A program made the position numbers and the translations under genes. Under the pieces are notes generated by a model. That model had not been told where the DNA came from and made no database searches. It was given only the letters and a program-made list of their open reading frames with translations. From Conoideocrella luteorostrata (taxonomy: Eukaryota > Ascomycota > Sordariomycetes > Hypocreales > Clavicipitaceae), in the NCBI GenBank assembly GCA_032433595.1, contig JASWJB010000003.1, positions 124,001 through 188,000 on the forward strand: a DNA stretch of 64,000 nucleotides, read 5' to 3'. This document shows, piece after piece, positions 36,133-60,565 of this stretch (the stretch's first letter is position 1; each line of letters begins with the position of its first letter).

Positions 36133-39100
36133 ATGCACAAAATGATTCCAGACACTGAGGCATCTCTCTCGCCGGGACTATGCATCGACGCCTGCTTCCG
36201 GACCGTGGTGGCGCAACATGACGAAGATATTGCTATCAACTACGAAAATTTCGATAAATTGAATTACGGACAGGTGAGTAAGTATATTGACCTCCTTGCT
36301 AATGATCTTAGATGCCAAGTCTCGCACGGACAGCTCGTGGCTGTCCTTCTCCCTCGCTCCCCTGCGCAAGTTATTGCTATCCTGGCGATTCTCAAGTTAG
36401 GTGCCATCTATGTGCCAATCAATCCCGAGTTGCCCAAGGCTCGAATTGAAAGCCTAATGCAGTCAATACCGATTGAGTTTGCCATCTGCCTGGCGGAAAC
36501 TCAACATCAGCTCCCACAAAACATTTTGCCCTTAAGGCTCAACGGCAAATATGGCCATGAGTCTCGGATCAAGCTTCCAGCCAACCACTTGTACGTGGGA
36601 AATTGGCCAAGTATTAAGTGTACCGATGTTGCAACCGTCTTATTTACATCAGGCAGTACTGGAAAGCCAAAGGCTGTCAAACTTACTCACAAAAACTTGA
36701 TGCCGCAGGCAAGATTGCTGGCAACAGAACTAGGGCTGAGTAGCTCCAGATCTGTGTTTCAGTTTTCATCCTGCTCTTTTGACGTGCACCTGCTTGATAT
36801 ACTATCAGCACTTCTTTCCGGTTCCCAGCTTCACCAGGCATCTCAAGACGCTACTTTGACGGATCTGGCGGGACAGATCACAAGCTTGGGCTCAGATACT
36901 GTTCAGCTGACCCCGAGTGTCATATCAACATTACAGCCGGATAGCGTTCCTTCCATCACGTGCATGGTCACTTGTGGAGAGCCTTGCACAGAGGAGATCA
37001 TAAATGCGTGGAGCGGTCGAATAACGCTGTTAAATGTCTATGGTAAATAATCACTGGAGCTACCCGTGCATTATATTTTTGACTTCTGCTGATCTGGAGT
37101 GTCATGCAAGGACCCTGCGAAGCTCCAACAACCAACATCAAACGGCTTCAACGTGGAGTCTCACCCAGCTGTGTCGGAAAGCCAGCGTCGTACGCAAGGA
37201 TTGCCGTCGTCGATGACAGGGGACAGCTACTTCCTGCCGGCGAAATAGGCGAAGTCCTAAGTAGCGGTGAGACAGTTTCTGAAGGATACTACAATGGCGA
37301 AGCACAAGACAAGTTTGTTCGAGCAGTCCAAGGTGCAAGCGATCCAACACCATCAGACCGGTGGTATGCAACTGGAGACTTTGGCTTTGTTGACGACTCT
37401 GGAGAGCTGCACCTACGCGGTCGGGCTGATGACCAAGTTAAAATCAACGGACAGGTATGATTCTATCTTCTATTATCCATGCCTTCAGACGTGTGTTCTA
37501 TTCACAGTGACATGTTAAGAAATGAGCTTTCGACAATTTTCGCGCATAACCATAAATAAAAATTTGCCCAGAGGAACCTTCTTACTAATATATCTCGATA
37601 ATCTTCCAGCGTATTGAATTAGGAGAAATTCGGGAAACTGTCCAAGCGGTTCCCGGTTGCGGACGTGCTGTGGTTATCGCCCACACTATCAACAAGCGTG
37701 TCGGACTTTACGCTTTTGTGTCCCCAAAATCCAGCTTTGAAGATCAAGATAGCCAAATTCAGTTGGCATATGGCTTTGAAACCCTCAGGAAAGAAATTTT
37801 TACTGCCTGCAAAGCCAATCTGCCCGCTTACATGGTCCCTCGGGTCATAGTCATTGGGCATATTCCCCAAAGCATCAATGGCAAGGTCGACACCTCCCAG
37901 ATTCGGGCCTTCTTAAGCACTCTTCCAGGGCTTGACGAGACAGGCTTTGAACACTCCGATCACCTTACGGATTTCGGCCGCCAGGTTGCTGGTATCGTTC
38001 GACAGCGACTACAGCAAGTGGTTCCCGCAAGAGATGACCTGCTGGAGTGGGGATTCAATTCGATGGATGCAGTATGGGTCATCCAGAAGTTGTATGAGCG
38101 TACTGACCACCGACTCTCCATCACGGACCTGCTCAATCACCCTACAATTCAGTCGATTGCGGATCTGCTAGATTCATCTAGAAAACTCTCCTCCAGACTG
38201 GGTACTGTTGAACCAGAGCAAACAAACTCCTATCTTGCTTCGCCCGGACAGGAAAGCATGTATCGAGCCACGAAATCTTTTGGAAATAACATGTATACGG
38301 TCAGGATCGGGTATGAGCTTTCTGGAAATGTTGATACAAACCGTTTCTTACATTGCATTCGAACTGTATACACCAAGCATGAAATCTTCAACACAACGTT
38401 CAATGAAACAAGAACAAGCTTTGAGGAGGTGGAAGTCACTGCCAAGGTGAAACATTCTCATTATACACCCTCTGTATCATCATTGTCCTTCAATCAGGCA
38501 TGTTCAGCTTATAATTATGCTATGTCGGCCGGAACATCTTTGATCAAGACTATATACGACCAGGAGGTGAACCGAGAAACGGACTTTGATCTTGAGGAAG
38601 GCTCCGTTGCGCGGGCGACAATATACCAGACCAATGAAGAAGCGAGCCAATGGCTTGTGATTCTTACATTCCACCACATGGTAATCGACGAGTATTCAAG
38701 CAACGCTTTCTGGTCCGAGGTGATGGATGAGTATCTAGGGAATGCCGTTAGACCCTCGGCTGCTCCTTCAAAAGCGCTGGAATACAGCCAGTACGCAAAA
38801 CTTTATCGGGGATTAATCGAGTCACGGCATGCATCAGATATGGAATGGTGGCGCAATACGTTTCGAAATTATAGACCTGAAGCCTTGTTTTGCGATCTAG
38901 TCGGAGAATCAACTGAACTGTCGATAACAGGCAGTACCGCGGCAAATATACACTGGAAGACGCTGCCCCAACAACAAGCCGCCAGGTTGACAGCACGGAG
39001 AGGAGCCAAGGCTAACGCATTCGGGGCTTGGCTATCTTTTTCTCAGCTGTTTCTATCTCGAATAACTGGAAAAACAAATTACCTGATGGGTATCCCGACA

Positions 39101-42100
39101 TCAACTAGATCTGTTGATCCCCGTTTTGTTGGCATCATGGGATATTGTATGACACTTGCAATCCTCCCTGTTTCTCTCGACCTCGACCAAGAGAGCTTAA
39201 CATTCGAGGCGACTACTCTGGAGAAGTACCGGGAGTGTGTGGACCACGATCAACAAGTCGAGAGCATCTTGAGCTGGCTTGCAGCGGAATGCAAAACAGA
39301 ACACAAGATCAAATTGGACGCTTTGTTCGTGTATCACGACCCACTGGACACGCATCTTGACTTTGAAACTTCGGGGGTTCAATACAGAAAGCTCGAAGAT
39401 CCGACGGGTGGGAGCCATTTTGACTTGATCATCCACATAGACAATTCGGGGTCCTCGGTAAAAGTCGGTTTTGAATACCGTACTTGCCCATTCAGCAAGA
39501 AGTTCGTTGAAACACTTGCAGAAGCCTTTTCTGACTTCGTGGTCGAGCTTTCCAGTCGTTCTGAGGAATCAACCGTCAAGGAAATTATAACACAAACGCC
39601 TTCACAGGCTCTTCAACTTTCCATTGATGCTTGTACAAGGCAGCCTGGGCCAGTTGTACAAGAGCTTCAAAGACGTGGTCAAGACCTCAGCGTCCTGGAC
39701 CACATCCGTATTACTGCATCTACACACCCGACAGCTGTCGCTATTGCAATCGAAGGACGCGATGTCACCTACCAAGAGCTTATTCGCCTAACTTGTAGCG
39801 TTGCAACGCAGTTACGTGGAGAAGGCGTCAAAATTGGCGACGTTGTGGTCTTATTTATGGACAAAAGTGTCGAGTACCTAGTTTCAGTACTAGCAGTAAT
39901 TCAAGTTGGTGCTTGCTTTGTGTCTTTTGATACGTCTGCTACACCGGCTGTCCTTGACTCGAAGCTAGGAGTGCTGAACCCAGCCATGATACTCACTAAG
40001 GCTGGCGACGTGGATGGGGAAAGAAGATACCTGGTTTTCGCTACCCCAACGATGAAAAGAGTCGTTATATCGACTCCTCAGAATGGTTCTTACGTCTCTG
40101 TTGCTTCTGATGTTGTTTCACCAGTGCGGACGTCAGCTGATGCATACATTGCTTTTACTTCCGGCTCAACTGCTGAGCCAAAGAGCTTCCGCATCTCTCA
40201 CGGCGCCTTAACTTCGTCCATATGCAGTCAGGTCGAGGCTCTAAATATCAGACGTGGGCATAGAGTAGCCATGCTTACCAGTTTATCATTCGACGTTTCT
40301 TTGATGGAGGTTTTTTGCACCTTCCTCGCAGGTGCCACGCTGGTTGTGGCCCCACATGATCAGTTTATTACTTCACTTGAAGAAACACTCAGACATATGG
40401 CCGTCACTCACGCTATTGCCACGCCTACAATGATAAGTGCTATCGAGTCACCTTCTGCAGTTCCATCGTTAAAGTCTATTGTCCTTGGTGGTGAACCGGT
40501 TCCCAGCGCTCTATACGATCGATGGTGGGGTTTGGTGGACATTCAAATTTCGTATGGACCAGCTGAAACCACGATCGCAACTCACGACTTTGTTGTCACG
40601 ACAAAGCCGATAACCACGGCTTGCACCATTGGCAAACCATCCCCCTCAGTCCGCGCTTTTGTTCTGGATTCTCAACATAACCCTGTGTTCCCTGGTATTC
40701 CAGGTCGCTTGTTCATCGGCGCCGCGGAGAGAGGAAATGGTGACCAACTAACGTCTGGTTATATTTCCCCACAATCTGCAAATGAACGATTGATTGTTCA
40801 CCCAGTCTTGGGTAAGCTGTATGACACCGGAGATATCACACGATACGACCTTCAAGGAGTATTTACACTGATCGGGCGTACTGATGATCAGGTGAAAATC
40901 TCAGGTGTCCGGTTCAATATCAGTGATGTTGAGAAGACTATTGATGTCCATGTGGAGGCTCAACAGAGATGTGCAGTAGTTGTTTCTCATGCTCGGCCTG
41001 ATGAAAAATTGCTGACTTGTTTTGTTGAGTTTCCGGACACCGAGGGTTCCTTGATAGCCCTACCCGACAACGGGGCGGGTGATTCTTCCCTCGTAATGTC
41101 AATCACCAATATTCTCTGTGACAATCTTCAGACACTGCGAGATTGCATATCGACAAAACTTCTTCCAGCAATGGTTCCCAGATGCTGGTTTCCCGTCAAA
41201 AAAATGCCCGTGACACGCACAGGGAAGATAGACCGGCGTCGACTACATGATCAGCTCGTGTCAATCTATCAGCATGGCATCAACATCAATGTATATCACA
41301 GCCTCACGATGCCTGCTATTGCTACTGAGCGGGAGACGGGAACCAATGACAACCCACGTTGGGATTCTCGTATCGCGCGGTCCTCTGGCAGAGGCAGTGC
41401 TCTGTCTGAGTCTGGTGAAGAGGAATTGGACGATAAGCTAATGCAAGCCCTTGTCGCGGCCTGGGTTGAGGTCCTGCCCATTGGTGATGCGCTCGTGGAC
41501 TCTAACCGGTCTTTCTTTAAGTCAGGGGGTGACAGTGTGTCTGCTATTCGCTTCTGCGCACGGGTGAGAGGATTAGGTGTCCGCGGATGTACAGTCGGAA
41601 AGATGCAATCTAATCCCTGCCTCTCGCGGCTCTATGATGTTCTCGCCTATGATAATGCCTCCATGTTGTCCCGGAAGTCACATATAGCATCATCTGATCA
41701 TTCACCTACAGAACACACCTTCAGAAGCACATCTCCCTCCTCAGTATCGTCGAGGCCAACACTCTCAGAGTACTCCGCTCTTAAATTTCCTGGAATGGTG
41801 ACCTTTACTCCCCTCAGCACATCGGGACAATCTACTCCTACTTCCGATAAAGAAGAGAAGGGGCCAGCTGATATATTCCGACACCTGAAAAGAGAAATGG
41901 ATACACAAGCCCTTCTGAAACAAATCACTGATGCGGGTATAAACCAAGACGACATTGATGTTGTTTACCCGCCGACTTCCATGCAATCCTCCATGGTGCA
42001 ACAGTCCCTGCTGAAGCCGGACTCAGGCGTATACCACAGTCAGCTCATACTACATCTTGAAGGTCCCATACAGAAGTCGAAGCTTAAAAGGGCGTGGAGG

Positions 42101-45100
42101 GAGGTCTGCAACGCAAATCCTTCTCTTCGCACCATTTTTGTGCCTCTGGAACGCGGCCACGCACCAGGGGTTGCATATTTGGCGGTGGAGCTGAAAGCAA
42201 ATACCCGTGAAGCTGTTTTCCGGGACTTCTCTCTCCCTTTGCCGTCACCCGAAGCGTTCGAGAAGATCTTAGACAACGATATGAAGCTCGGAATTGAAGT
42301 TACTACCAACATGCACAGAATGACCTTCATAGAGCAAGGTTTAGGAACGTTCACGCTGTTATTTACGTGTCATCACTCTGTTTTTGATGGCTGGAGCACT
42401 GCTACCTTACTGAAACAGCTTGGTGATGCCTATTCTGAAGGTTTGCCCTTAGAATTGAATAGATCTAACGCTGGGTACTTTGCGCAGCAGCTGACGCAAG
42501 ATCGGAGCTCGTCGGAGGCTCTTTGGAGGCAACACCTGGCCGGTGTCCAGTTTCCAAGGCTTACCCAGCGAGCAAATGCTATGAACGGACCAAGACACTC
42601 GAAATTGGAGGCAAATATTTCGGGTTCCCTTTCGAAAAGTACCCTCCGAGCACGCGCTGAAGCGCTTGGTGTTACCCCATTCACAATGGTACAAGTCGCC
42701 TTTGCACTAGCACTTGCCGAGCCGTGGGAGCAGGCGACTTCTGTCCGGACCGGATTTTGGACGGTTACCAGTGGAAGATCGCATCATACAGAGGATTTGA
42801 ACTCAATTGGCAACTTCCTGAACACAGTCCCGTGTGTAGTAGCCCTCTCATCGCGCATGAACTTGCGTCAATGCGTCCAAACCACGTATAGCACGTTCAG
42901 CAAGATGTCAGAACACGATCATGTTCCGACTCCAGACATTATGCGCTGTTTTGAGTCGCCTCTTAGCGAAATTGATGCCCTTCTGGTGTTTGAAAATCAT
43001 CCAGATGCTAGCAAGCCGCAACTCAACTTTGGTCAAAACATTCGGCTCGTGGCTGTCGATGGCAGAGAAATCAAGTCTCCCTTTCACTCTTGTCGTCGAA
43101 CCTGGTAAAGATGATGTCAAGATCACAGCTAAGTTTAATGAGGCGCTGATCCAGTCTGGTTCGGTCAGACGAGTCAGTAATCGTTTCGCGACAATCCTGG
43201 ACAACATTCTTTCGTGTGCCGACCTTGATGAATGCAGTGTCTCCAACTTCAGCCACGATTATGACTACACGGAGCAGCAGCTGGCATTGCAGCAAGCATT
43301 AGACATGAACCAGAGATCGACAAACAAAAGCACCCTTGTGTCTCTATTTCGCGAGTGTGCTGCTAAATACGGCCAGAATAGAGCACTGTCAACTGGCTTG
43401 TCATGGCTAACCTATGCCGAACTAGACGCTCTCACCGATCGGTTGGCTCTGCACCTTTTGAATTATGGCAATGAAAATTCCAAGGTTATCCCGATTGTTC
43501 TCGAAAAGAGCCCTTGGATGGTCGTTGCGATGCTTGCAGTCTTGAAAAGTGGGCGAGCATACTGTCCGCTTGAGTTCGACGCACCGAAACACAAGATCTC
43601 TTTCGCCGTCAAAAAGCTCGGTGCTACTGTGATCATTACAAGCGAAGATGGATTTGCCAATTTAGCGAGCATAGGAACTTGGGGTCAACCCCAAATCCTG
43701 GTAGTTGACAAATTTCGGACCGTCTTGGATAATGCCGCAAGTAACACTCCCAGCGGACCGGTGTCAAAATTGCCCATGATACACCCAGACATGCCATGCT
43801 ACATTATGTTCACATCAGGGAGCACTAGCAGTCCAAAAGCATGTACCCTTACGCATGGCGCGGTTGCCAGTGCTGTGCAAGCCGCTGTGCCTATCTATGG
43901 CATTCAGCCATCGTCTCGCATATTGCTGTTTGCTAATTATGTCTTTGATGCTAGTGCTATAGACATATATGGTTCCCTTAGTTCGGGCTCTTGTCTGTTT
44001 CTTCTACATGATGATAAGCTCAAATCTGACCTTATCGGGCACATGAACCGCCTTCAAATCAACTGGGTACATCTCACACCAACGGTTCTTCGAATCCTGT
44101 CCCCGGATGAGATTCCCAGTCTTAGAACTGTTGTGCTGGGAGGAGAGATGATGCCATTGGACTTGCTCAATACGTGGGCGAAGCGAGTTGACGTTGTCGC
44201 CGCGTACGGCCCAACTGAAGCCGCCATCCAAGTTCTTACCTTCCGCCCGACTAGTTATCCTGTGGAACAGATCAGCTACACCGCTCTCCCGGGAAATTTG
44301 GTAATTCTTGTGAATGATCGCCACGAGATTTGCCATCTTGACGAGCCCGGGGAGATCCTTGTTGCTGGAAACCAACTGTTTGCAGGGTATGAAGGCAACA
44401 CCTTTGCCACTCAAGCCGCCTTTACCCATGTTCCTGCTTTTGGTCATCGCCTATTCTACAAGACAGGTGATCGGGGTTTCTATTCGCACGTCGGTCAAGA
44501 TGGCAAGCCATGTATTCGTATCCTTGGTCGTATAGATGACCAGATGAAAATTTCGGGCATGCGAGTGGTACCAGAGGAAATCGAGGAAGTTATCAACACA
44601 GATCCAGATGTGGTTTGCTCCGCCGTGGTCACAAGTGATGGAAGATCTCTACATGCTCTGGTTGTGGCACGTAACGCAACCCTAGATCTCCTGCGCCTCA
44701 CGACCCTCTGCCAAGAGAAGCTTCCCGAGCGATTGCAGCCGGTGATCTACCAGATTGATGAGATCCCCCTCCTGGCAAGCCGCAAAGTGGACCGAAAAGC
44801 TTTGAGAACATTCGTGAATAATGCACTATCTTCGAAGTCTAGCGCCATCGCAAAGTGTACAATGAGGCAAGATTCTCCTCGGAAAAATGAAATTGCCACA
44901 GTTGTGGAGGAAGCCCTTGGTGCGAAAGTGCTTGATGTTAACACATCTTTGTCGAGCTTAGGTTTGGATTCGCTCGGTTTCATGCGCCTCCGACATTTGA
45001 TAGCTGACCATTTTCAACTACCGGATTTGACTTACCGTCAGCTGCGCAATGGCGCGACGATGGCGGGGATAACCGAGCTTGTGGAGGCCTCGTCTCTGTC

Positions 45101-48100
45101 AGCCATCCTCAGTAACGATGAGATGTCTGATTTGAACGCTGGCGAGGCGTTGATGACCAAAATACCCAGTCGTCAGCCTTCTTCCACACCAATTCGACGC
45201 ACTGGAAAATTTCCAGCTCTTCTAAGTCAACTAGCCATGTGGATTGCGCAAGAACGCCTACAAGATGCGACATATAACGTCCAGCGGATCTGGCGCTTCA
45301 ACGGCGTCACGGCGCAGCGTGTGATGTCTGGGCTTCTTGATGTCTTGCATCACCTCGAACTCTTTAGAACGACATTTGACTTTGACGTCTCAACTGGGAA
45401 GCTATATCAAATTGTTCATGATGAGATTCTCGTCAAGATTCAGTTCTCCAGCACCCCGCACACTTGGGAAGCTGACTTGCCGCCAGAGCTTGTGATTCCG
45501 GACAACTGCGCACTTATAGATCTAAAGAAGGGACCCTTGGCAAGTTTTCATGTCATGACCGATGGCAAGAGTACGCTCCTTCACTCTACTATACATCACA
45601 TTCTGGTGGATGAGTTAACAAGTGCGCGACTGTTCAAATTTATCAGGCTTGCTTGCATGGACACTTCTGAGCAATGTATTTTCGATGGTACATCGCTCAC
45701 TGACCTTCTTACAGGCCACTCTGCGAGCCGTCCAAAAGACAACAGCTTTGATGAGTGGAAGTACCGGATGCAAGGTGCTAAAAGTATCGCTCCAATGCAA
45801 CGGTGCTATGACAGCTCGTACGATCAGACTCGACAAACGATACAATTTTCTTCAGTGGCTGCAAACAAAGGCTCCTTGCCATTTGTAGATTTGTTGAGTT
45901 GCTTTCACGCTGTTCTTCATCGCTACGCTAGGTCTAACGATGTCACCACAACAATTCCTATTTCAAGCCGTGGCAAGTTGCCGCTTCGGTTCTCGCAACA
46001 CGTAATGGGTAACTTGACCCACACCGCACTTCTTCGCAGTCGCTTGGGTGATGAAGATTCGCTTAAGGACCTCATTAAACATATACGGGAAGGCGTGGAT
46101 CTTGCGTTAGAGTCAGACATGGCCATTAACACGGTTGCTTCGGCTTGTGGTCTTGACCTCACTCAGTTCGATATTCAGTTTGTTCTTCATGATGCCCAGG
46201 CTTATGACAGTTTGTCGTCCGACATGACTGATCTGACGCTGGATATCATCTCCCCGGAGAGGCCAATGCTGGACTTGATGTGGCATGTCTTTGTACATTC
46301 AGAGTGCCTGGAGATTCTAGTTCAGTTCAACGAGCGGAAATACCCGAAAGCGGACATTGAAGTCCTGCTCAATGCGTGGACGAAACTCATAGACAGGCAT
46401 GACAACACCAGATCCGCCAAGCCTCTGAATTTGGTATTGTCAACGTTGATCCCTGAAAGTGTCTTCCTGAGAGATTTTCGTTCTAGTATTGAAACGACTC
46501 AAAAAGAGTCTTGCCCTGCGACCCCAGTTATGTTGAGAGAGATGTCTTCTCCGACGCAGGATCGTATTTCGATGATAGATGAGACAGTCTCCTCCAAATC
46601 AGCGAACATTTACGCGGCGGCTAGCGAACGGACATCACGACTACTGTCCCTCATCACCGAGTCGCTCCGTAAATCGCTGGGTGTCGCAGATGTCAATCCA
46701 GATAGAAACCTACGAGAAATCGGCCTCGATTCATTTGCCGCTATGTCCTTCATTTCATTTATGCTTCGAGAAGAGCCAGAACTCGAGATCAGTCTTCGCG
46801 CAATCACGACGTACCCTTCCGTGCGACTGCTGGCTGCCCATCTCGCCGAAAACACAAATACCGCATTGGAACTTCACGACAGCCGATCAAGGTTCAGTGC
46901 CTTGATAAAGGACTCTCTATCTAAGTCTTTGGGTGTTGAGTCTATCACTGAGGACCGAAACTTGCGGGAACTCGGATTGGATTCGTTTAGTTGCATGGCC
47001 TTCATTGCTAACATGCTCCGACACGACCCTGAAATGAGTATCAGCATGCGCGACATCATGCACTGTCCCACAGTTATGGCTCTAATTGATAACATTACGG
47101 ACCAAATGCTAGCAACGGGAAGCGATCCTTTGCTTGCCCTCGACCCGAGTGACGACGAAAGCTTCGTGGTCTTACAGCCGAATAGAAGCACAAATACGCA
47201 GCAAGGTTTGGCGAGCTCCATGCAGAAACGATTCTATCTTCTACAAGAACAGCTTGGAGATTCAACTTACAGCTTGCCAAGTGCCTACCGTCTGCACGGC
47301 GTTCAAATGTCATACGTGATAACATCCCTCGAGCATATTGTGAAGGAACATGATATTTTCCGAACACATTTTGACTTTACAGATGACAGTACACTACTGC
47401 AAATAGTCAACGAGTCAGAACAACTGGAATCTGTAGTTCATGATCTTAGTGGACTGAGCGAAAAAACTGCCATCGAAGAAGTCGCGAGACTCAGCTATGA
47501 AGAATGCGTACGCGAATTCAACCTTACCGAAGGACATCTCGTGCGATGCACTGGCTTTATTCTGCCCGACGGAAAGCAATACTTGATTTTGAACTTCCAT
47601 CACTGTGTTGCGGATGAGCAAACTATCAGTGGAGTTTGGGCGGAGCTTTGCGCTGCTGTTGCCGAACAAGCTGACGCAGATGAGACCATCGAAACCCAAA
47701 CATACCTCGATTTTTCACATCGACATCACGAGATACTCAAATCGGACAAGGTGCTGACAGCCCAGAGATTCTTTAAGGACCTTTTTGGTAGTCCCGAAAG
47801 CCTCTATGGCCTCCCTGCTAGGCCGACTTCTGAACTAGCAGGCTACCCTGACGCTATTACGGTAAACTGCTCAGCAACCTTTGACTTTGACCCTGTGGAC
47901 TGGGCATACGAGTTTGGTTCGACTCCTTTCACAGCTTACTTGTTTACCTTCCAGCTTCTTCTCAGCTTGAGGTCACAAACTAGGGGATCATCGGTTTTGA
48001 TTCCTGCAACTTGCCGGGGACCTCGTGAACAGAACCTCTATGGATGCTTTATCAACACTCTTCCCGTAAAATTCAGCAAGCTGAAGGAAGGCTCATCCAT

Positions 48101-51100
48101 ACTCGACAATCTACAATTTTTTCAAAATCGCCTAACCCAAACACTGGAATACTCTGATATACCGTTTGAGAAGCTACTCGAAACCCTAGGCTGTGACGCC
48201 GGTGACTTTGATACTATGTTCACGTATCATAATGTCCCCGCTGGAGCAAGGGAACAAGTCAGGGCCATTCAACCCTGCAAGGAAATACTTCCAGAGGTTA
48301 TGCCAGGAATCTCTGCGAAGTTCCCCCTGGCCTTTACCATTACAAGAGAAATGAAACCAGATGGGAAATCGAAGCTGGGCATGAGCGTTGAGTTTAACCC
48401 AGACCGCGTGTCAGAAGCCGAAGTTTCTGAGATTTGCCTAGAATATGAGTCTTTATTGCGCAGAATTCGAAGCATAGGGCTATTCATCCATCTCTCTAAT
48501 CTTGAGGGACTTTGTGCTGACGTAAAAGCACCGAGATACCCAGAGCTCACCTCGCGAGGAAGAACCAGCGTGAATGATGCCACTGAGTCTGCAGCGCTTG
48601 AGCTAAAAGTGAACTCTACTTCTCAGCACCTTGAAACACAGCCAATCCAGAAGGTTCCTGCTTGGTTCCATGGTACGCCTAATCTCATGGTGGAATCAAC
48701 TCCCTTCGCCGACGTACAGGTTATGGAGCAAGCCAGAGTAAGACCCTCGGCAACTGCCATAATTTTCGAAAACGAGGTATCTGTATCTTACAAAGAAATG
48801 GAACATATGGTTTCCGGCTTGGCTCACTATCTATCTGCTTGTATTGGGCAGCAGAGCATGCTGAATCGGGCCATTTGCATCGTTGGAGACGCATCCGTTG
48901 AGCGCGTAATTACAATCCTGGCAATCATGATGTCGGGCGGTGCTTATGTTCCAATTGAGCTGATCAACCCCGTGGATTGGAACATGACAATTATTCAAGA
49001 CTGCGAGCCAGCCGCTGTGGTATTTATCCCTGAGAAGGAACCTCTGCGAATTAATCTAGCTTCTCAACTTAAAAGCCGACTTGCAGGAGTGGGAGTGTCT
49101 TGCCTCGGCATACCAACTCCACTTCCAACGTCACCAACCCCCCTAATCACCAAAAGACTGCCAGAGCATTTAGCCTACGTCTTGTACACAAGTGGTTCCA
49201 CCGGAAAGCCGAAGGGTGTAGCTATTCAGAATTATGCGCTCCGGAATGCGACAGTCGCGCTCCGTCCTTTGTACCGCCTAGCACCAAATAAGCGATTGCT
49301 CCAGCTGGCACCTTGGACCTTTGATGTCTCTGTTATCGACATTTTCGGCACTTTGAGCGTTGGGGCAACACTTTGCATCGGCCGCAAAGATTGGATGCTG
49401 GCGGATCTTCAAGACACAATGGCTACACTGAAAATCACACACATCGCCACCACACCAACGATTGCCGGTGCCCTGGACGCAAATGCGCTTCCGGATGTTG
49501 AGTGCCTGGATATTGGGGGGGAACCGATGACGGAGCTGTGCAGAGAGGTTTGGGCCGCCAAAGCGACACTCTTCAACATTTACGGACCAACCGAAGCCAC
49601 CGTCGATGTCCTGGGCCGCCAATGCTTTCCAGACACCGACATTGCCAATATCGGTCGGCCCTTGGAGAACGTGTTTGTTTATGTACTAGACGAAAATCTC
49701 AACCAGGTTGGCATAGGTGAGGTTGGTCAGCTAGCCTTGGGGGGTGATCAACTAGCACGGGGCTATCTCAAGGCGCCGCCTGGTCCACAGGCATTTCAGG
49801 ATACTAAGCAATACGGTCGCATCTACCTGACTGGGGACTGTGCTCGTTTCGAGACGGATGGAAGTATCGTCTGCCTGGGTCGTATGGACACTATGGTCAA
49901 TCTGCGTGGCTTGCGCGTCGAGCTGGGTGCGATGGAGAGTGCTGCAAACAAGGTGCTTGATCAAGGAAAAAGTATTGCAATGATGATTAAGCGTCAATCA
50001 GGTGACTGTCTGGTGGTTGTTTTTACAGATTCCACCATCCACGCAAAAGGTGCTTTGCAAACCATTTCCTTGGCTGGTCTCGCAACTCTTCTCGTTCGAC
50101 TGCAAACCTCAATGAAGACTGAATTGCCGCCATACTTCATGCCATCCTTATGGATCCCAGTCAAGGATATTCCTATGAACAATAACGGCAAGCTGGACAG
50201 AAAGGCAGTGAAGAAACTTGTTGTCGAGCTATCCGAAGAAGAGCTTGATAGATATCTTCCTCAAGCTGCGACAAATGATAAGCTTGAAGAATCTAACCAA
50301 AGGCAACCCACGATGGGCTCCGTAATTGCATTATCCAACGTGGAGTCTGCTGGACAAACAAGTACCAGAGCAGACGATATTGCCGAGCCCGGCGTGGTCG
50401 AGGTCCGAGGTTCCACACCAACGACCAAATCTCTTCCGGTTGAGAACCCGCCGCCTGGTGATGGTAACCGAGTCCAGGTGGCTATCAAAGCTGCAATTGG
50501 AACCATTCTTGGTGTTAAGACTCTACAAGGCAGTAGCAACTTCTTCTCCTTGGGCGGTGATTCAATATCTGTGATCCGACTGCGGTCAGCTTTTACCAAA
50601 GCCGGACTCAAATGCAAGGTAAAGGACATCTATCAGAATCCAACCGTTGCAGATCTAGTGAGATTTTTTGGTGGCACAATCGCGAGTGAGCCATTTGACG
50701 TGGTTGAGGCTGTGAGCACACCTATTACGACAAACATGGCGGTGCACACTCCCACACTCCCTCCTCTCGGTAACACACCGACCACGAAGGACCGCATACA
50801 AGGAGCCTTTCAAGAAATTCTGGGGAACCGTCATATCTCAGACGAAACCAGCTTTTTCACCTTGGGCGGTGATTCTATTTCTGTCATTAGGCTTCGAACA
50901 ACCCTTACCAAGATGGGATTCAAACTCAAAGTCAAGGATATTTATCAGTACCCCACCATCAACGCACTAATCGAATTCATCGATCCAGCCGGTTCTAAAA
51001 ATTGTGACGCGGGGGCTGTCAGTACATTGTCGGGAACTTCACGGTCAACTACTGATGTAGAGAACCATATGGTCAGCAGTCCCATACCCTTTACGCCTAT

Positions 51101-54100
51101 CATTGACTGGTTCTTCGCCTCCGAGAGAGCCAATGAAGACTGGTTTAATCAAGGTCACGTCATCAAACTGAACAAGAAGCACAGGTTCGAGGACTTCCGA
51201 CGAGCTTGGTGTGATATCGTTGAAGCCCACCCGATGTTACGCCTAGTAGTATCAAGACACTCAACTGAAAAGAAGGACCAAACAATATGTATCCCCATGC
51301 AAAACCTCGGTCACACCAAATTTGTCACCAAGACCTTGTTATCTATGCAAGAGCTTCCAGCGGAGCTAGAGAAGTTGCAGTCAAGTCTGGATCTTACGAG
51401 CGGACGTATCTGCGCCATTGGCGGGTTCCATGTTGGCGATCAACTGTATTGCGCAATATTCGTCCATCATTTAGCCATTGACATAGTTTCTTGGCAAGTA
51501 ATCTGGATGGACCTGGATGATCTTCTTCAAGGAATTCCTATCGCGTCGGAGTTTTCTTCTTTTGCAGAGTGGGCCGACTATTTGACTGTAAAGGCCCGCG
51601 CACAAAACCCCACTACGTCGCCTGATTTTAGTCGCGGATCTTTTCTTACAGCGGAACAGAAAAATCACCTCTCGGAGAACGCCGAGGGATCTGGAGACTT
51701 CATGAGTATTAAGGTGGATATTTCTACGCTTCAACTGAGACATGGAAATGCAGAACCCGTTGACATGATACTGGCTGGCCTAATCTTGGGGCTTAGTAGC
51801 TGGCAAAGCGAGCTGCCTCCAACAGATAAGGTTCAACTTCACTTTGAGTCTCATGGTCGAGACTTAAATCTCGAGGAGCTCGACTTAACAAGAACTGTTG
51901 GATGGTTTACACGCATCATTCCCATTATTTTCAATGTACCTGTGGCGGGTACAGTTGGCGACTTCGCCTCAGCAGTTGAACAGACACGACGGCGTGCAAT
52001 GGCTAGGGTCGACTTGTCCTCTGCTATCGAAACTGCACCAGTTGATGGAATGATCACGTTCAATTACCTAGGACAGAGATCTCAGAAGTCGATGTACACT
52101 TCATTTGACAACATAGACATGGACCTGGGCATGTATCAGGACCCAACAAACCGACGATTCTCAATCTTGGATATCGAATGCGGCTTGAACCATGCGGGAG
52201 AGTTGGACCTCGGCGTCTTCTACAGTACCGCTATCCATAGAGCTGACGAAGTTCGCGAGCTATTGGATATGTGGGCGCAATGCATCCGCCGCATTGCTGA
52301 AGAGCCGCAGCTGAATATTGCTCATGTTCATTCAAGTAGCCTTTCCGGATGCATCGGTAGCCATCCCAAGCCTCCAGCACATCCCATCGAATACATTATT
52401 CCTCAATGCATGCAAAGCCAAGCTAATGCCATCGAGGATGGTATGAGAGACTGGAAACTCAATCCCGAAGATGTGGAAAAGATGGCACCTGCCACTGATG
52501 GACAGGCATCAATGCTTTTGGCTAGCCTCGGATCCCGATACTATACGCACTCGTACGACTACGAAACGAGCGACACTGATACTAATGTTGCACTACTCGA
52601 ACATGCTTGGGCTGTCGTCTTGGAACGACACTCTATCTTTCGAACCGTCTTTGTGCCTCTTGCTCCTCACACAACTACTCACGGAAAGGGGTTAAGTCAA
52701 GATGGCATTCGGTTGGTACAAATCACTCTTAAGCCAAGAGCCATTGCTACTCCATTAGTACAGATGGACAAGCCGTCCAAGCCGATGCAAGCAAATTTCG
52801 GAAAGCAGCTGTCAGCACTTTACATTCACAGGTCTCCTGATACCAATCAAGTCCTCTGTACTTGGACTTGTCACCATGCTCTCATCGATGGTTCTTCTAT
52901 GCGCAAAGTGTTAGATGAGGTTCGAAGGATCTACATTGGCCAAACCCTTCCACCCCAAATAATTCAATTCAGCGACATCGCATTATCCCGCTATGAACGA
53001 GGACTCTTGGAAAACACAGACTTGGACTTCTGGCAATCCCAGATGCGCGATGTTGAGCCGTCTATATTGGCAAATCCCTTGTGTGCTGATAAGTCACCAG
53101 TTACTATGAATACTTCAACTTACAAAGCCTCCGACGACCAACTCCACCGATTCTCCTTTCCCGTGAGTCCTGCTCAACTCCAGGCAGCTGCTTCCTACCA
53201 TCATACGACAATGCCTCTTCTATTCCATGCCGCTTGGGCTCTTGTGCTGTCGACTTATCTCTCTACATCTGACGTCGTCTTCGGTACGGTGGTCTCTGGG
53301 CGTCGTGGGGCGGATATTGAGTGCATACAGGACGTTGTCGGGCCATGCATTAACACCGTCCCACTCCGAGTGTGTATCGACTGGACGCACGAACTATCCT
53401 CTTTCATCGAACAGGTCACTGATCTCTTCTTGGATATCGCCGAACATGAAGATGCGTTGTCGCTTAAGCAAATTCATGACCTTTCCGGAAAGAGCCGTCT
53501 TTTCAATACTACGCTTATTACCTCGTATCCTCCGCCAAAGCCAGAAGCGGCCGTTCACCCCGAATTCCAGCTCATGCTCAAGGACATGGATGAGGTTACA
53601 GACGTACCATTACTCATTAAGTTAGCATGGGATGATAGTAGCGTTTTGGTAAATGCGCGCTTGCATGGAGGAGAAGTCGAAGAACAACAGCTTCATCGTA
53701 TCATGGGAACTTTCCGCATTGTGCTCCATCATATTGCAGAAAGTAGATGCGGCATCAAAAAACAGCTCTGTGATCTCGACTTGATGGACGAAGGGCATCA
53801 TAAGTTGATTGACGGGCTTATCTCTGGGCCACAGCTCCCCAGGCAATACGAAAGCCTAACATGCTGGCAGCTCTTAGAGAATCGTTCCAGACAGTCACCA
53901 CATAAAACGGCTGTAGAATTCTACCGGAAGAAGGGACAAAAGCCAGTCGTCTTAACTTACAAAGCTCTACTCAGCCTTGTTGAACTGGGAACCAAAAGGC
54001 TCCGAGCGATCATCGAGTTAGAGCCCAAGTCAAGAATAGCAATATTTATGGACAAATCTATCAACATGGTTTGTGCTATACATGCAATTCACAGAGCGGA

Positions 54101-56401
54101 CTGCGCTTATGTAGCGTTGGACACGGACAACCCTCCAGCGCGTACAGAGCTTCTCCTTGAGCAAATCAAACCATGCGCCATTATTTGCTCGAGGGAAACC
54201 CAAAGCTTGCTGCCCCAAACATCTCTAGAGGGTAGCAAGTGTCCGATCATCACAGCTGAAGACCTCTTCAGTACACTCACCGTGTCCGTAGCCGATAGCT
54301 CTACTTTACCTCAGCCCACTGCTACATCAGACGACACTGCAGCTATTCTTTTTACAAGCGGAACTACAGGTACACCCAAGGCTGTGATAATGCCGCATCG
54401 TCAGGTTGTTGGCTATGGTGTGATGATGGGGGAAGCAATCGAGTACGATAGTGACGATCGCGTGTTCAGCTTCGCACGCCTTGTCTTCGATGTTTCACAA
54501 AGTGATATATTCGGAAGCATCTATGCTGGTGCTACACTCATCCTTGCTCCTCAAGAAGAGACCATGTCTAGGCTTCCTACGCTGCTACGAGAGTCGGGTG
54601 CAACAAGCATCAACGTAACACCTTCGATCGCCTCTCTTCTCTATCCTGATGCGCTCCCTAACATTCGATCTCTTTGCCTGGCAGGAGAAATGGCAACAAA
54701 TGCCGTATATGAGAGATGGTCGCCAACGGTTCGCGTTATCAATGCGTACGGTCCTACTGAGGCAGTGGTTATCTCTTGGCAACACGCCAGCGCCTCAACC
54801 GATCCAAGATGCATCGGAAGGCCAAGTGTCGGAATGCAAGTACATATCTTGGATGAAAATATGAGGCGAGTTCCTATAGGCAGTATTGGGACAATTTGGT
54901 GTTCCGGGAGACAACTGTCAGATGGATACTACTGTCAACCTGGGGAAACATCGCAGGTATTCCGGGACAACCCCTTCGGACAGGGTCTGTTGTATAACAC
55001 CGGTAAGTACATCTATTGTTCTGACTTGGTCTTTTGACAAGATACGTTGACCGATTGACTAACTTGATTGTAGGTGATATGGGATCGTATAGTTCAAGTG
55101 GAGAGATAATGTACCAGTCGCGGAAGGATCGCCAGGTGAAGTTAAACGGTCGCCGTTTAGAGCTTGGTGAGGTTGAGAAGACTTTGTCAACGCAAAACGT
55201 TCACACAGTGGTACTCGCACTAGACTCTGACCTTGTTGCCTTTTGTTGCAACATAAGTACAGCCGAGAAAAGCAGTCTAGGACGTGACGACAGTGATAGG
55301 TCATGGCTAGACTATGGCATTCCAGAGATACTCACAACTCTGAAAGCAAGGGCTTCGCAGCTGCTGCCGAGTTTTATGATTCCGAGGAGTTTCGTACCTG
55401 TCGTCGCCATACCTCTCACAGGTAATGGCAAAGTGAACCAGTCCAAGCTACATGATATCTACACGCAATGGAAGGCACGGCATGGTTTCGAAGCCGACAA
55501 CTCTCTCAAGATGAATGGTCATGAATTGGTTTTGGAGGCACGAAGTAACGCTCTGTCACCATACGACACAACAAAAAAGCATCAACCGCTTAAACGGCAG
55601 CAGCAGAAATGCACCATTGACTGGTCCCAGCGTGATGACGACTGGGAGGATTACTTCCTCCCATACCTCAACCCCAACAGAGCATCAAACAAGCAGATGC
55701 GGCACCAAATTTTCGCGTTCTTTGCCATCACCGGCACGTCCAAACAACATAGCGTATTGGCACCTTATCTGCCGTCGTTCGACCTTGTTGGCGTCGAGAA
55801 TGTTTCCTTCCATCAGCCAGAGCACTACAAGTCGCTACAAGCGATTGCCGTTGATCACTGTGCACTTCTACGTCAAAGACAGCCTCGGGGGCCACACCTG
55901 TTGATTGGATTCTCATTTGCCGGCCAATTAGCATACGAAGTTGCCAACGAGCTACACAAAGCAGGCGAGGATAACGTTTTCGTGGTTCTGATCGATTCTG
56001 CGGCACGTGAACGCACACCAACGAGGCCGGGAGGTGTTACAGATGCTGAATGCGAGAAGTATTTCAAAGTTCCCAGTGCACTCGAGGCAACGACAGCCGG
56101 GTCCGATGTCGTCGAGTATCGCCGTCTTCTCCTACGACAGATTCGCCACAACATACTGCTACATGACAAATACGTACCACGCTCATTTGATGGCGATACA
56201 CTCATCATCCCGCGCTTGCCGAATGAGAACGAAGCCTGGAACGGTGACGAGACGAACGGTTACGGCGAGTTCGTCTCGCATGCACGGCTGACTGTGCGAG
56301 GCGTAACCGCAGCTGATCATTTTGCCATCATGGAGGAGGAGCAAGCCCTTCGCAAGGTCGGACAAGCGGTTGAGGAGTTTTTGACAGGTTTTCTGATATG
56401 A
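36133..56401 (+). CDS. NRPS-2: A-T-C-A-T-C-A-T-C-T-T-C-A-T-T-E-C-A-TE synthetase, with an apparent +1 frameshift
   Basis: Peptide synthetase with five A domains. Exons: 36133-37042, 37111-37454, 37610-55002, 55074-56401. The third exon changes frame near 43.07 kb; skipping one base there makes the total exactly 6658 codons. Approximate residues: A1 1-540, T1 566 (GFNSM), C1 625 (HHMVID 774), A2 1114, T2 1723, C2 1867 (HHSVFD 2007), A3 2330, T3 2869 (LGLDSL), C3 2951 (HHILVD), T4 3455, T5 3539, C4 3621 (HHCVAD), A4 4123, T6 4733, T7 4837, E 4910 (HHLAIDIVSW, ESHGRD, intact), C5 5376 (HHALID), A5 5840-6340, TE 6426-6657 (GFSFAG at 6494, late His in DHFAIME). No carrier domain lies between A5 and TE. 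The A3 core motif is altered in A2 (TSGSTAEPK) and A3 (TSGSTSSPK). Hand-read codes: DVLQVCVTTK, DVMIVGSIAK, DAIHVGAIQK, DVIADGIVDK, DVSNCAAVIK. The N-terminal A and the TE suggest a self-contained line. If the frameshift is real, the protein stops after about 2245 residues. Confidence 0.88.
43055..43090 (+). other. Apparent +1 frameshift within condensation domain C2 of NRPS-2
   Basis: Upstream, the frame that encodes A1-C2 runs to a stop at 43106-43108. Downstream, the next frame begins to make sense at about 43080 (LPFTLVVEPGKDD) and continues for 12 kb. The two pieces are consecutive parts of the C-terminal lobe of one C domain, so no protein sequence is missing, only one base is extra. 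Runs at AAA (43067-43069) and CCC (43078-43081 region) are likely places. No GT-AG intron of workable length restores the frame without losing conserved residues; the nearest candidate is 34 nt. Confidence 0.8.
46630..47100 (+). repeat. Tandem carrier domains T4-T5 of NRPS-2
   Basis: Two consecutive carrier domains of the xGLDSF type, serines at nt about 46730 and 46980. They share the pattern SLxKSLGVxxxxxDRNLRExGLDSF and similar flanks, so one is a copy of the other. They sit between C3 and C4 with no adenylation domain, so their loading must come from another A domain. Confidence 0.85.
50475..50985 (+). repeat. Tandem carrier domains T6-T7 of NRPS-2
   Basis: Two consecutive GGDSI-type carrier domains behind A4, serines at nt about 50562 and 50874. 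The cores are nearly identical (LGGDSISVIRLR, then KVKDIYQ in both), which points to a more recent copy than T4-T5. The pair stands directly before the intact epimerase domain. Confidence 0.88.
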
Positions 56402-57848: not shown

Positions 57849-57856
57849 TATAAATA
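57849..57856 (+). promoter_or_regulatory. TATA box of the repeat-peptide gene
   Basis: TATAAATA, 120 bp upstream of the ATG at 57976, followed by a pyrimidine-rich stretch and a CA-rich leader, as in strongly expressed fungal genes. Confidence 0.6.
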
Positions 57857-57975: not shown

Positions 57976-58433
57976 ATGGCACTTTCAACTCTTGTTACCT
58001 GCTTCCTGGCTCTCTCCGGCATCTCAGGAGCGCTGCCAAGTAAGTCTTTCGGATGCAATTCATGATACAAGAACAAGACTTGCTCACACAGATCGTTAGC
58101 CGTCCAGGTGGGTACAGAGGTTCGAAGGTGTGGACCTCTGGAGCATTGCATTGACGGAGTTGAAGGTAAGTCTAGTATCACTTCAATGCCAAGCTTGGAG
58201 CCTTATTTTATTGAAACCTTCATAGTGGTTCAAGAAAAGACGACCACTAAGCGATGTGGACCGCTCGAGTGGTGCCCTGACTCCGCAGACCAAGGTCAGG
58301 ATATCATTATCATTATCAATATTGATTCATTTACTAACGACCTTCTGTAGTTATCCAGGCGAGTGCACCCGTCCGGAGATGCGGACCGCTCGAGGTATGC
58401 CCTGACAGCGAGCCAGAGGCGAATGATAAGTAG
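57976..58433 (+). CDS. Secreted precursor with three Kex2-flanked CGPLExC repeats (candidate KEP/RiPP-type peptide gene)
   Basis: Four exons: 57976-58039, 58100-58165, 58226-58294, 58351-58433; all three introns are phase 1 (60, 60 and 56 nt), giving 93 residues. Exon 1 encodes a signal peptide (MALSTLVTCFLALSGISGA, residues 1-19). Exons 2, 3 and 4 each encode exactly one repeat: a V-Q-containing spacer, a dibasic pair (RR, KR, RR), then CGPLEHC, CGPLEWC or CGPLEVC, followed by an acidic tail (IDG, PDS, PDS). Cleavage after the dibasic pair by the Golgi protease Kex2 would free peptides that begin with Cys and can close a seven-residue disulfide ring. This is the layout of fungal Kex2-processed repeat proteins and dikaritin RiPP precursors, but the core does not match any family I know. 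The first acceptor of intron 1 is skipped because it leads to a stop; the donor of intron 3 (gtcagg) is weak. No UstYa-like oxidase is nearby; a P450 is. Confidence 0.8.
58100..58433 (+). repeat. Three-fold exon repeat encoding CGPLExC
   Basis: Exons 2-4 of the precursor gene are paralogous units separated by introns in the same phase. At DNA level the core TGTGGACC(G/T)CTxGAG is conserved in all three, with the second and third most alike (GGACCGCTCGAG in both). The symmetrical phase-1 borders mean that any exon could be copied or lost without breaking the frame. Confidence 0.8.
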
Positions 58434-58733: not shown

Positions 58734-60565
58734 TCACATGTTACGTAACCTCTGTGCAAACTTGACACTGAGCCCGTTTGACTTACTTGTGGGAAATAAA
58801 ATCAATAAACCGTCTTCATGTCCACTTTGTTCATCCATATTCGCAAAGCAAATGTCTAACTGGGAGAATATAGTAGCTAAAGTTATATGAATTTGTGCAA
58901 GTGCTAGTCTGGGTAGTTGTTAGTAATTATTCCCATATACAAAATTATGGATACATACTCTTTCCCTAAACAGCGTCTACTTCCCTTTCCAAACGTGCCA
59001 ATATATTTTTCAAGATCTTTTGCCCCAGGTTCAAGCCAACGCTCTGGCATGAACTGTCCGGCTTCTGGAAATATATCTTCGCTAAGGTGATTAAACTTTG
59101 GAGTCATGCTCACCGCGACCTACAAATCGATAAGTCAATGCAGGACATAAGATGAGTAAGGAAACGTACACCTTTAGGTATCTGCCACTCTTCAAATATC
59201 ATTATGGAATTGTTGTTCACACGTGGCGACCGATAAGCACTGCCTTGTTCAAGTCTGCTTTCGCTTAGCTTGTATTTGCTGTAGATAGCAATATGGAAAT
59301 CTTGGCATACCTAAAAGTCTCCAAAATGATACTTCTCTAAATAAGGTCAATAAATTTTTTTGTATAGTTTATTTTAAAGGACGCACTAACCAAATACGGA
59401 AACTGCTCCAACTGCTTCATAGTTAAGTTTTTATTCGATGGAGATAACTTGTTGTCAAGCTCAGCCTGCAGACGCCGATAACATGACGGATTACTCAGAA
59501 GATGAAATGTTGCAGTGATTAAAATGTTAGCGGTTCCTTCTGTACCAGCGATAAGCGCACCAACTGCCTCAGCGTGTAAACGTCCAAAAGCTTTGTCCAC
59601 GGGCAAAAGTTCATCGCTAGCCAGGATTACGTCGATTAAAGCATTTCCGGTTTCTGATTGGTCGCGCATCACGCGAGCTTGTACAGCATTTTGAATTCGT
59701 ACACTAATATCCTTACAAACTTTAGTCAAAACGTTGTAAACTGTGAAACCTAACAACATACCTTTTGATAATGAAGTAGCGATTCCAAACTTGGAGTAAA
59801 AAACTGGCCACACCAGCGCCATAATCCAGTGAGTACATAACCAGTAAATCCTGCTTGTCTTATAACGGCTAAGAGCCAGAGAAAGGCGCTGCATGACTTG
59901 TGAAAGTGATGTCCAAAATCGGGTGAGTCAATAAGGTTGTGGGAGGAGGAAAAATAAAAGGAGGTGACAATATCACTCCCAACACTTCGATACCCATCCG
60001 AGAGATTAATTGTTTTTCCCGTGCCCGCAGCACATTTTAGTCTCTCACAGAATTTTTTCACCACCTCACAAATGAACGGCTCAAGTTGTTCAATTGATTT
60101 GCGTGAAAAGTGTCCATGTATAGCCGCATGACGTCGACGATGTAATTCGTGTTCTGCAGTTGTGACTAATGCCGGTCCCGCATTATAATACCAGTCATAT
60201 TTATCAAGTTTGGGAGTAAGGTAAAATTTGTTGTAGAATTCTGGACTGTCAATATGCAGCTCATTTGGACTAATGCGTATAATCGGCCCTATGTAACTTA
60301 GTACTTATGCTCATTACGTGGGTTCTCTATTTCTCTCACCATATCGTCTGTGGAGGTCTTCAATTTTCAAATGATACTCTGAATTCTTCACGCAATCATA
60401 ATAGAATTCATACCAAAGGGTAAGCGCGGCCAACTTAGGTCCAGGAAATTTCGCCAGGGGGCTGAAAACCAGACGGTACACAGCCAAGACAATCAGCCAT
60501 GAGATAGCAATGCCGACCACAGGCAGTGTCCATCCGCGGTCCATTAGGATTTCGTAAAACTCCAT
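58734..60565 (-). CDS. Cytochrome P450 monooxygenase, fungal microsomal type
   Basis: Seven exons on the minus strand: 60565-60340, 60288-59762, 59711-59391, 59336-59311, 59254-59170, 59119-58959, 58908-58734; the phases close to 506 residues, the usual length. An N-terminal membrane anchor (residues about 12-32) is followed by the hinge FPGPK. Motifs in order: I-helix AGTEGT (306-311; the family usually has AGxDTT), ExxR as ETFR across an exon border (364-367), PERW (about 422), and the heme loop FGKGSRRCLG with the Cys ligand near 444. Exon 4 is only 26 nt, which explains why single open frames look broken. The gene is richer in A+T than the synthetases but all signature residues remain. 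It would oxidise a small substrate at the ER membrane; tailoring of a cluster peptide is inference from position only. Confidence 0.87.

Follow-up and report, generated by a model that had tools for sequence, protein, structure and literature searches.

Introduction

In the parts of the published surveys covered here, Kex2-processed repeat proteins (KEPs) are fungal precursors with a signal-like leader and repeated cores separated by KR or RR, from which short secreted peptides are expected and whose functions are largely unknown (PMC6339444, PMC7329392, PMC9769878); the portion of Vogt 2022 considered (PMC9769878) describes the expression of KEPs in Pichia pastoris and reports that no specific function was found for the KEP peptides examined. 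Two detection filters are given in the corresponding sections: that of Umemura 2020 (PMC7329392) takes at least three tandem repeats of at least eight residues between Kex2 sites, and that of Le Marquer 2019 (PMC6339444), meant to cut false positives, takes at least three similar fragments after the C-terminal one has been set aside. In dikaritins, the core needs a Tyr (Phe in victorin) for side-chain cyclisation, according to the sections of PMC9233826 and PMC7329392 considered, and EDYxI is the core given for ustiloxins and phomopsins in the covered part of PMC6339444. Passages of PMC6339444 also describe the two-cysteine alpha pheromones of Sordariomycetes, which have a Kex2 layout, a WC...PCW frame and XA or XP dipeptides that are removed by Ste13.

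Here, a short gene of Conoideocrella luteorostrata is compared with these systems. It lies in a window of 64,000 nucleotides, the whole stretch of DNA that was analysed, which corresponds to positions 124001-188000 of contig C3 in a 46.4 Mb assembly. Its product looks like a member of a real peptide family, apparently undescribed.

Structure of the precursor gene

The precursor gene occupies positions 57976-58433 of the window, on the plus strand, and its four spliced exons code for a protein of 93 residues (MALSTLVTCFLALSGISGALPTVQVGTEVRRCGPLEHCIDGVEVVQEKTTTKRCGPLEWCPDSADQVIQASAPVRRCGPLEVCPDSEPEANDK), in which a signal-like leader is followed by three copies of [K/R]R-CGPLExC. Splicing reproduced the coordinates, the four exons, the length, the three repeats and the acidic tails given in a preliminary description of this DNA, and the dibasic pair that it had placed directly before each CGPLExC is present in 3/3 cores.

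A TATA-like box (TATAAATA, 57849..57856, plus strand), which is a consensus match only, precedes the ATG by 119 bases; a sigma-70 promoter and terminator scan, whose model was not built for fungi, gave no match. Exon 1 (57976..58039) comprises the ATG and the signal-like leader (MALSTLVTCFLALSGISGA, then LP), as indicated by the splice model, by hydropathy and by alignment with the leader of a Trichoderma guizhouense relative, in which SGA/LP of the window protein stands opposite AVA/YP. This leader is hydrophobic, with a 12-residue mean of 2.17, whereas stretches that begin beyond residue 22 do not exceed 0.64. After intron 1 (58040..58099), exon 2 (58100..58165, from the splice model) carries repeat 1, i.e., VQVGTEVRR and then CGPLEHCIDGVE, with the dibasic site RR at 58123..58128 and core 1, CGPLEHC, at 58129..58149. 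Intron 2 (58166..58225) splits the first V of exon 3 (58226..58294, also from the splice model), which contains repeat 2, VVQEKTTTKR and then CGPLEWCPDSADQ, with KR at 58249..58254 and core 2, CGPLEWC, at 58255..58275. Likewise, the first V of exon 4 (58351..58433, splice model) is split by intron 3 (58295..58350), and this exon codes for repeat 3, VIQASAPVRR followed by CGPLEVCPDSEPEANDK and the stop, with RR at 58374..58379 and core 3, CGPLEVC, at 58380..58400. All these features are on the plus strand; the dibasic sites are supported by the sequence and the splice model, and the cores by the splice model and a genome pattern scan.

The introns are of 60, 60 and 56 bases, GT-AG and in phase 1 in 3/3 cases; intron 3, placed from both the sequence and the splice model, contains TACTAAC, while introns 1 and 2 come from the splice model and have alternatives. 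Since every intron falls behind the first base of a codon, one whole unit sits in each of exons 2, 3 and 4, with the layout x-[V/I]-Q, spacer, [K/R]R, CGPLExC, x-D-[S/G] and acidic tail. At the DNA level, the repeat is of 29 bases, with spacings of 126 and 125, and the reference copy shares 72 and 86 percent identity with the other two.

The four-exon splice model does not follow from the DNA by itself. Free enumeration gave 516 open models with three introns; the three cores are intact in 28, and in 18 of these 28 a dibasic pair precedes every core. When introns 1 and 2 were restricted to GTAAG donors, 46 models were obtained; four of the 46 keep the three cores, all four keep the three dibasic pairs, and they differ at spacer edges only. 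The model used here, picked with the help of the repeats and the relatives, is preferred because its leader and units match the annotated proteins of the spliced relatives, which have the same leader-unit layout.

The DNA pattern C-x-P-[L/F]-E-x-C occurs 23 times in the 46.4 Mb assembly, compared with 14 matches for the reversed control. Gly is found at position 2 in only three of the 23, and these three, all in the precursor gene, are the only ones behind a dibasic pair. A search of the genome with the window protein and the T. guizhouense relative recovered the precursor gene only and no second gene.

Relatives in Trichoderma

Among 5.8 billion proteins, one relative was found (four candidates), A0O28_0007590 of T. 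guizhouense, with an E value of 5.0e-17 and 47 percent identity over 97 percent of the window protein. In a two-sequence profile search, six of 2976 candidates then reached an E of 10 or lower. Three of them are named Trichoderma proteins, with E values of 1.1e-27 to 3.6e-56 for a profile that included the top match itself; besides A0O28_0007590, they are CFAM422_006629 of T. lentiforme (50 percent identical over 94 percent of the window protein) and GGI35DRAFT_439991 of T. velutinum (39 percent over 95 percent). The number of units per precursor is four in T. guizhouense, three in T. lentiforme and two in T. velutinum, compared with three in the window.

The other three proteins (P0004, P0005 and P0006, one of which is named T. 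pleuroticola) are weak profile matches that cover 23 percent of the query, with E of 0.30 to 0.45. Their first 21 residues are as in the Trichoderma precursors, after which they seem to read through intron 1. When they were back-translated in another frame, five motif placements were obtained, in 3/3 proteins, against 0.0005 per set of three in 2000 shuffles; in this other frame, P0004 fits the relatives in two runs of 22 consecutive positions, one of them with the stop, and P0005 and P0006 in runs of 16. After DSKL[P/S], at which the fits end, there is room for a phase-1 donor, as judged from the amino-acid letters. From their sequences, P0004-P0006 look like intron-retaining, frame-shifted models of the precursor gene; the fits up to a phase-1 end suggest that the one-unit exon may predate the split of the window fungus and Trichoderma. 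On the other hand, short EPVAPV spacers that are without the x-x-Q start seen in the window link several of the T. guizhouense and T. lentiforme units, suggesting that copies may also multiply inside an exon. By their sequences, units joined in this way may lie in a common exon, which argues against a pure exon-duplication story.

Searches elsewhere gave no further members: viral contigs scanned with the T. guizhouense protein had 24 pattern matches and no relative, and the sequences of the Protein Data Bank only one match, with E 0.29. In Pfam, the window protein had two matches far below the cut-off and three relatives none, and no NCBIfam match was found for four proteins.

Conserved cores and predicted peptides

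Across the 12 units of the four species, R at -1, K or R at -2, C1, P3, L4, E5, C7 and D9 are invariant (12/12). Position 8 is variable, and the spacers vary in sequence and in length. The only cysteines past the leader are the two of each core, and Tyr and Phe are absent from 12/12 core peptides. Position 6 of the ring is V in six units, H in three, I in two and W in one; that it would be the only variable ring position does not hold for the family, since position 2 is G in 11 units and Leu in one. Loss of the sites and cysteines with retention of the spacers, which the preliminary description had named in advance as evidence against itself, is the opposite of what was observed, as the dibasic site and both cysteines are kept in all 12 copies. 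Its proposal of a secreted multicore precursor of the Kex2 type, in which the conserved ring sequence starts with Cys, is supported.

One correction concerns the products: Kex2 and Kex1 alone would yield peptides of 20, 21 and 16-17 residues from the window precursor, within a family range of 16-21, instead of bare seven-residue rings. For their disulfide forms, the computed [M+H]+ values are 2155.9998, 2183.9736 and 1800.7415, or 1672.6465 for the third peptide when its last Lys is removed. Net side-chain charge is negative in all eight peptides computed (the window's three, with two lengths for the last, and the four of T. guizhouense). A P-domain, as is typical of Kex2, is present in one gene of the genome. 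For the T. guizhouense relative, AlphaFold2, run with three sequences aligned, predicted a leader helix at residues 3-19 and gave a mean pLDDT of 42.6, with residues 25-110 all below 50; a weak indication, from a model built on so few sequences, is that no sign of a folded cysteine-rich domain appears after the leader.

Genomic setting

Two large NRPS genes are located upstream of the precursor, at 1679-22108 and 36115-56398 of the window, with ABC transporter frames between them. The main open frames of the second (37589..56398, plus strand, identified by Pfam domains) end with a thioesterase frame, leaving 1.6 kb to the precursor ATG. Tail to tail with the precursor and 300 bases downstream is a cytochrome P450 model on the minus strand (58734..60565; Pfam p450, E 4.5e-45), around which the flank is AT-richer (GC 0.425 at 58-60 kb). 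Decay of the P450 gene was considered and set aside: the frames break in the AT-rich stretch, yet a seven-exon model reads through 506 residues without a stop.

In the P450 search, the 7998 candidates sharing most words were scored and 729 relatives obtained. Among the best 120 of these 729, the best-scoring full-length relative is 38 percent identical, a partial one from Pseudogymnoascus is 51 percent identical over 68 percent, and no Trichoderma name occurs. A link between the precursor and the NRPS and P450 genes is unsupported, because the P450 has no close Trichoderma relative among these matches although the precursor gene occurs in that genus. The precursor had been proposed to form a single system with the two synthetases and the P450; this proposal is not supported, and a system with the P450 was rejected on the strength of these matches. 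The position of the gene beside them is probably incidental. The open frames inspected in six stretches around the window looked unrelated, except for upstream frames that were PKS-like by eye; the one UstYa match on C3, 77 kb upstream of the precursor, is about 7 kb from these.

Other repeat precursors in the genome

UstYa (DUF3328) gave 60 exon-level matches in the genome, one of them on C3, and tyrosinase 16, none on C3. Thirty UstYa loci (about 1.5 kb on each side, several covering one gene) were scanned, and a Kex2-type repeat frame was found in two, indicating that the pairing of UstYa with a precursor exists in this genome. The figure of 2/30 is a lower bound, because the scan passes over units that are split by introns, such as those of the window gene. 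Two L059 frames and an overlapping L064 frame, also flagged, were judged not to be such precursors.

One of the two precursors (L025, C54 near 24463, and C54:21864-22545) is ustiloxin/phomopsin-like, with eight units around KTVEDYFIGADKRD, and lies beside a UstYa match that has tyrosinase matches at 1.9-2.6 kb. The other (L012, C604 near 8612-9172), also beside a UstYa match, has four units ending in ADAF between KR sites, and its repeated core contains Phe and no Tyr. C54:117619-126436, where UstYa matches are densely packed into 9 kb, is a candidate large RiPP cluster.

The L064 locus (C13:19338-20045) codes for an alpha-pheromone-like precursor, with four WCYRPGQPCW copies, a divergent WCWRINQECW copy and spacers such as KAKREAEAESNEKR, typical of alpha pheromones. 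Dikaritin-like and pheromone precursors are therefore both found in this genome, and the window gene, which differs from them, looks like neither.

Interpretation of the precursor

The reading that we consider likely is that of a KEP-type precursor, belonging to a small family that also occurs in Trichoderma, which releases ring-first acidic peptides as extracellular signals or effectors. That the product instead remains whole, as a small secreted cysteine-rich protein (SSCRP) with uncut dibasic pairs and with cysteines folding the repeats together, is unlikely: UniRef labels the T. guizhouense relative "SSCRP protein" (a label only) and two to four copies are a low number for a KEP, but a dibasic pair stands directly before C1 in 12/12 copies amid spacers of changing sequence and length, the cysteines past the leader are confined to two per core, Pfam and NCBIfam have no match above the cut-off and AlphaFold2 gives no confident fold after the leader, a weak argument with three sequences aligned. 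It is quite improbable that the gene is a RiPP precursor of a new dikaritin-like class, whose cores would be modified by the adjacent NRPS and P450 enzymes. The Kex2 multicore layout is indeed that of dikaritins, and the NRPS 1.6 kb upstream and the stop-free P450 model 300 bases downstream would be at hand; however, the sole UstYa match on C3 is 77 kb away, the contig has no tyrosinase match, no core contains Tyr (neither Tyr nor Phe occurs in the 12 core peptides) and the best 120 of 729 P450 relatives include no Trichoderma name. Dikaritin identity was rejected on the first three grounds, and the kinship with dikaritins first suggested for the gene does not extend beyond the layout. The missing UstYa is the common case for KEPs, because DUF3328 genes accompany 22 percent of the KEP genes in the data of Umemura 2020 (PMC7329392) considered here.

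The two-cysteine alpha mating pheromones of Sordariomycetes share the Kex2 layout with two cysteines per unit (PMC6339444, part covered), but such an identity is very improbable for the window gene and was rejected, as the genome has its own WCYRPGQPCW precursor on another contig, C13, and the window cores are without the WC...PCW frame and begin with CG-PL instead of XA or XP. A chance open frame or a decayed gene, for which the shortness of the gene, the many open splice models and the AT-richer flank could be invoked, is hardly credible in view of relatives in three named species (E 5.0e-17, and 1.1e-27 to 3.6e-56 by profile) and of sites that are invariant in all units; a chance repeat is ruled out by the Trichoderma relatives, short of an annotation artefact common to all of them.

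For the favoured KEP-type precursor, the leader would send the protein into the ER, where a Cys1-Cys7 disulfide ring would close in each C-x-P-L-E-x-C unit. Kex2 would cut after the RR or KR directly before the first cysteine and Kex1 would trim the basic pair; we infer this processing because the sites are conserved in 12/12 units and the enzymes are known. The acidic peptides that would then leave the cell, three in number and ring first, would be about 20, 21 and 16-17 residues long, and no dedicated modifying enzyme would be needed for them. By analogy, given the invariant ring scaffold with its variable sixth residue, their most likely use would be that of an extracellular signal or effector peptide, and one-unit phase-1 exons would let the copy number shift by exon duplication. 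A bolder proposal, which is possible and is advanced only tentatively, is that the gene belongs to the founding family of a class of fungal secreted ring peptides, in which Kex2 makes the N-terminal Cys of a Cys1-Cys7 ring on an invariant C-x-P-L-E-x-C-x-D scaffold with one variable residue per copy, peptides are gained or lost by phase-1 exon duplication, and the products serve Trichoderma and its kin as a hormone or as a cross-kingdom signal. Trichoderma is a genus used in biocontrol; the small size of the family, its rigidly conserved core and its presence in this genus make deletion and peptidomics practical.

Comparison with known systems

The precursor is a KEP by concept. Compared by repeat number and length with the filter of Umemura 2020 (PMC7329392), the window protein is borderline, with repeats of 20, 21 and 17 residues, the last bounded by the C-terminus. 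By direct count, the core fragments before the C-terminal one are two in the window protein, three in T. guizhouense, two in T. lentiforme and one in T. velutinum; thus, with two fragments versus three, the window precursor falls below the filter of Le Marquer 2019, which is a detection filter and not the KEP concept. A low number of units (two to four), split by introns, puts such genes at or under the repeat filters, and surveys may miss them; a second way in which the family may be missed is suggested by the 3/6 proteins of the profile search that match the gene when it is read in a shifted frame.

Among the conserved cores that the covered part of Le Marquer 2019 (PMC6339444) names, C-x-P-L-E-x-C-x-D does not occur, and the Trichoderma RiPP of PMC7099791 has, in the section considered, another core, KKAHPYEEP. 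In one open full-text library, a scope that leaves out supplementary KEP tables, no description of CGPLE cores or of the locus tags of the relatives was found.

Compared with its uncharacterised relatives A0O28_0007590, CFAM422_006629 and GGI35DRAFT_439991, the window precursor has a related leader and the same units, in a number that changes from four to three to two among them. Like ustiloxin, phomopsin, asperipin and the other dikaritins, and like the epichloecyclins, it is a multicore precursor and a presumed Kex2 substrate; unlike them, it has no UstYa match nearby, its cores are without Tyr and the ring is presumably formed by a disulfide. With the alpha pheromones of Sordariomycetes it shares a Kex2 precursor and two cysteines per repeat, whereas their WC...PCW frame and the dipeptides removed by Ste13 are absent from its cores. 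It resembles the KEPs, as they are described in the parts of PMC6339444, PMC7329392 and PMC9769878 covered, in the signal-like leader, in the repeated cores separated by KR or RR and in the short secreted peptides expected; it differs from them in that the family has two to four units, each window unit corresponds to one phase-1 exon and the ring starts at the cut site, and these one-unit exons, the ring sequence beginning at the cleavage position and the fixed scaffold that varies at residue six are what is unusual in the family.
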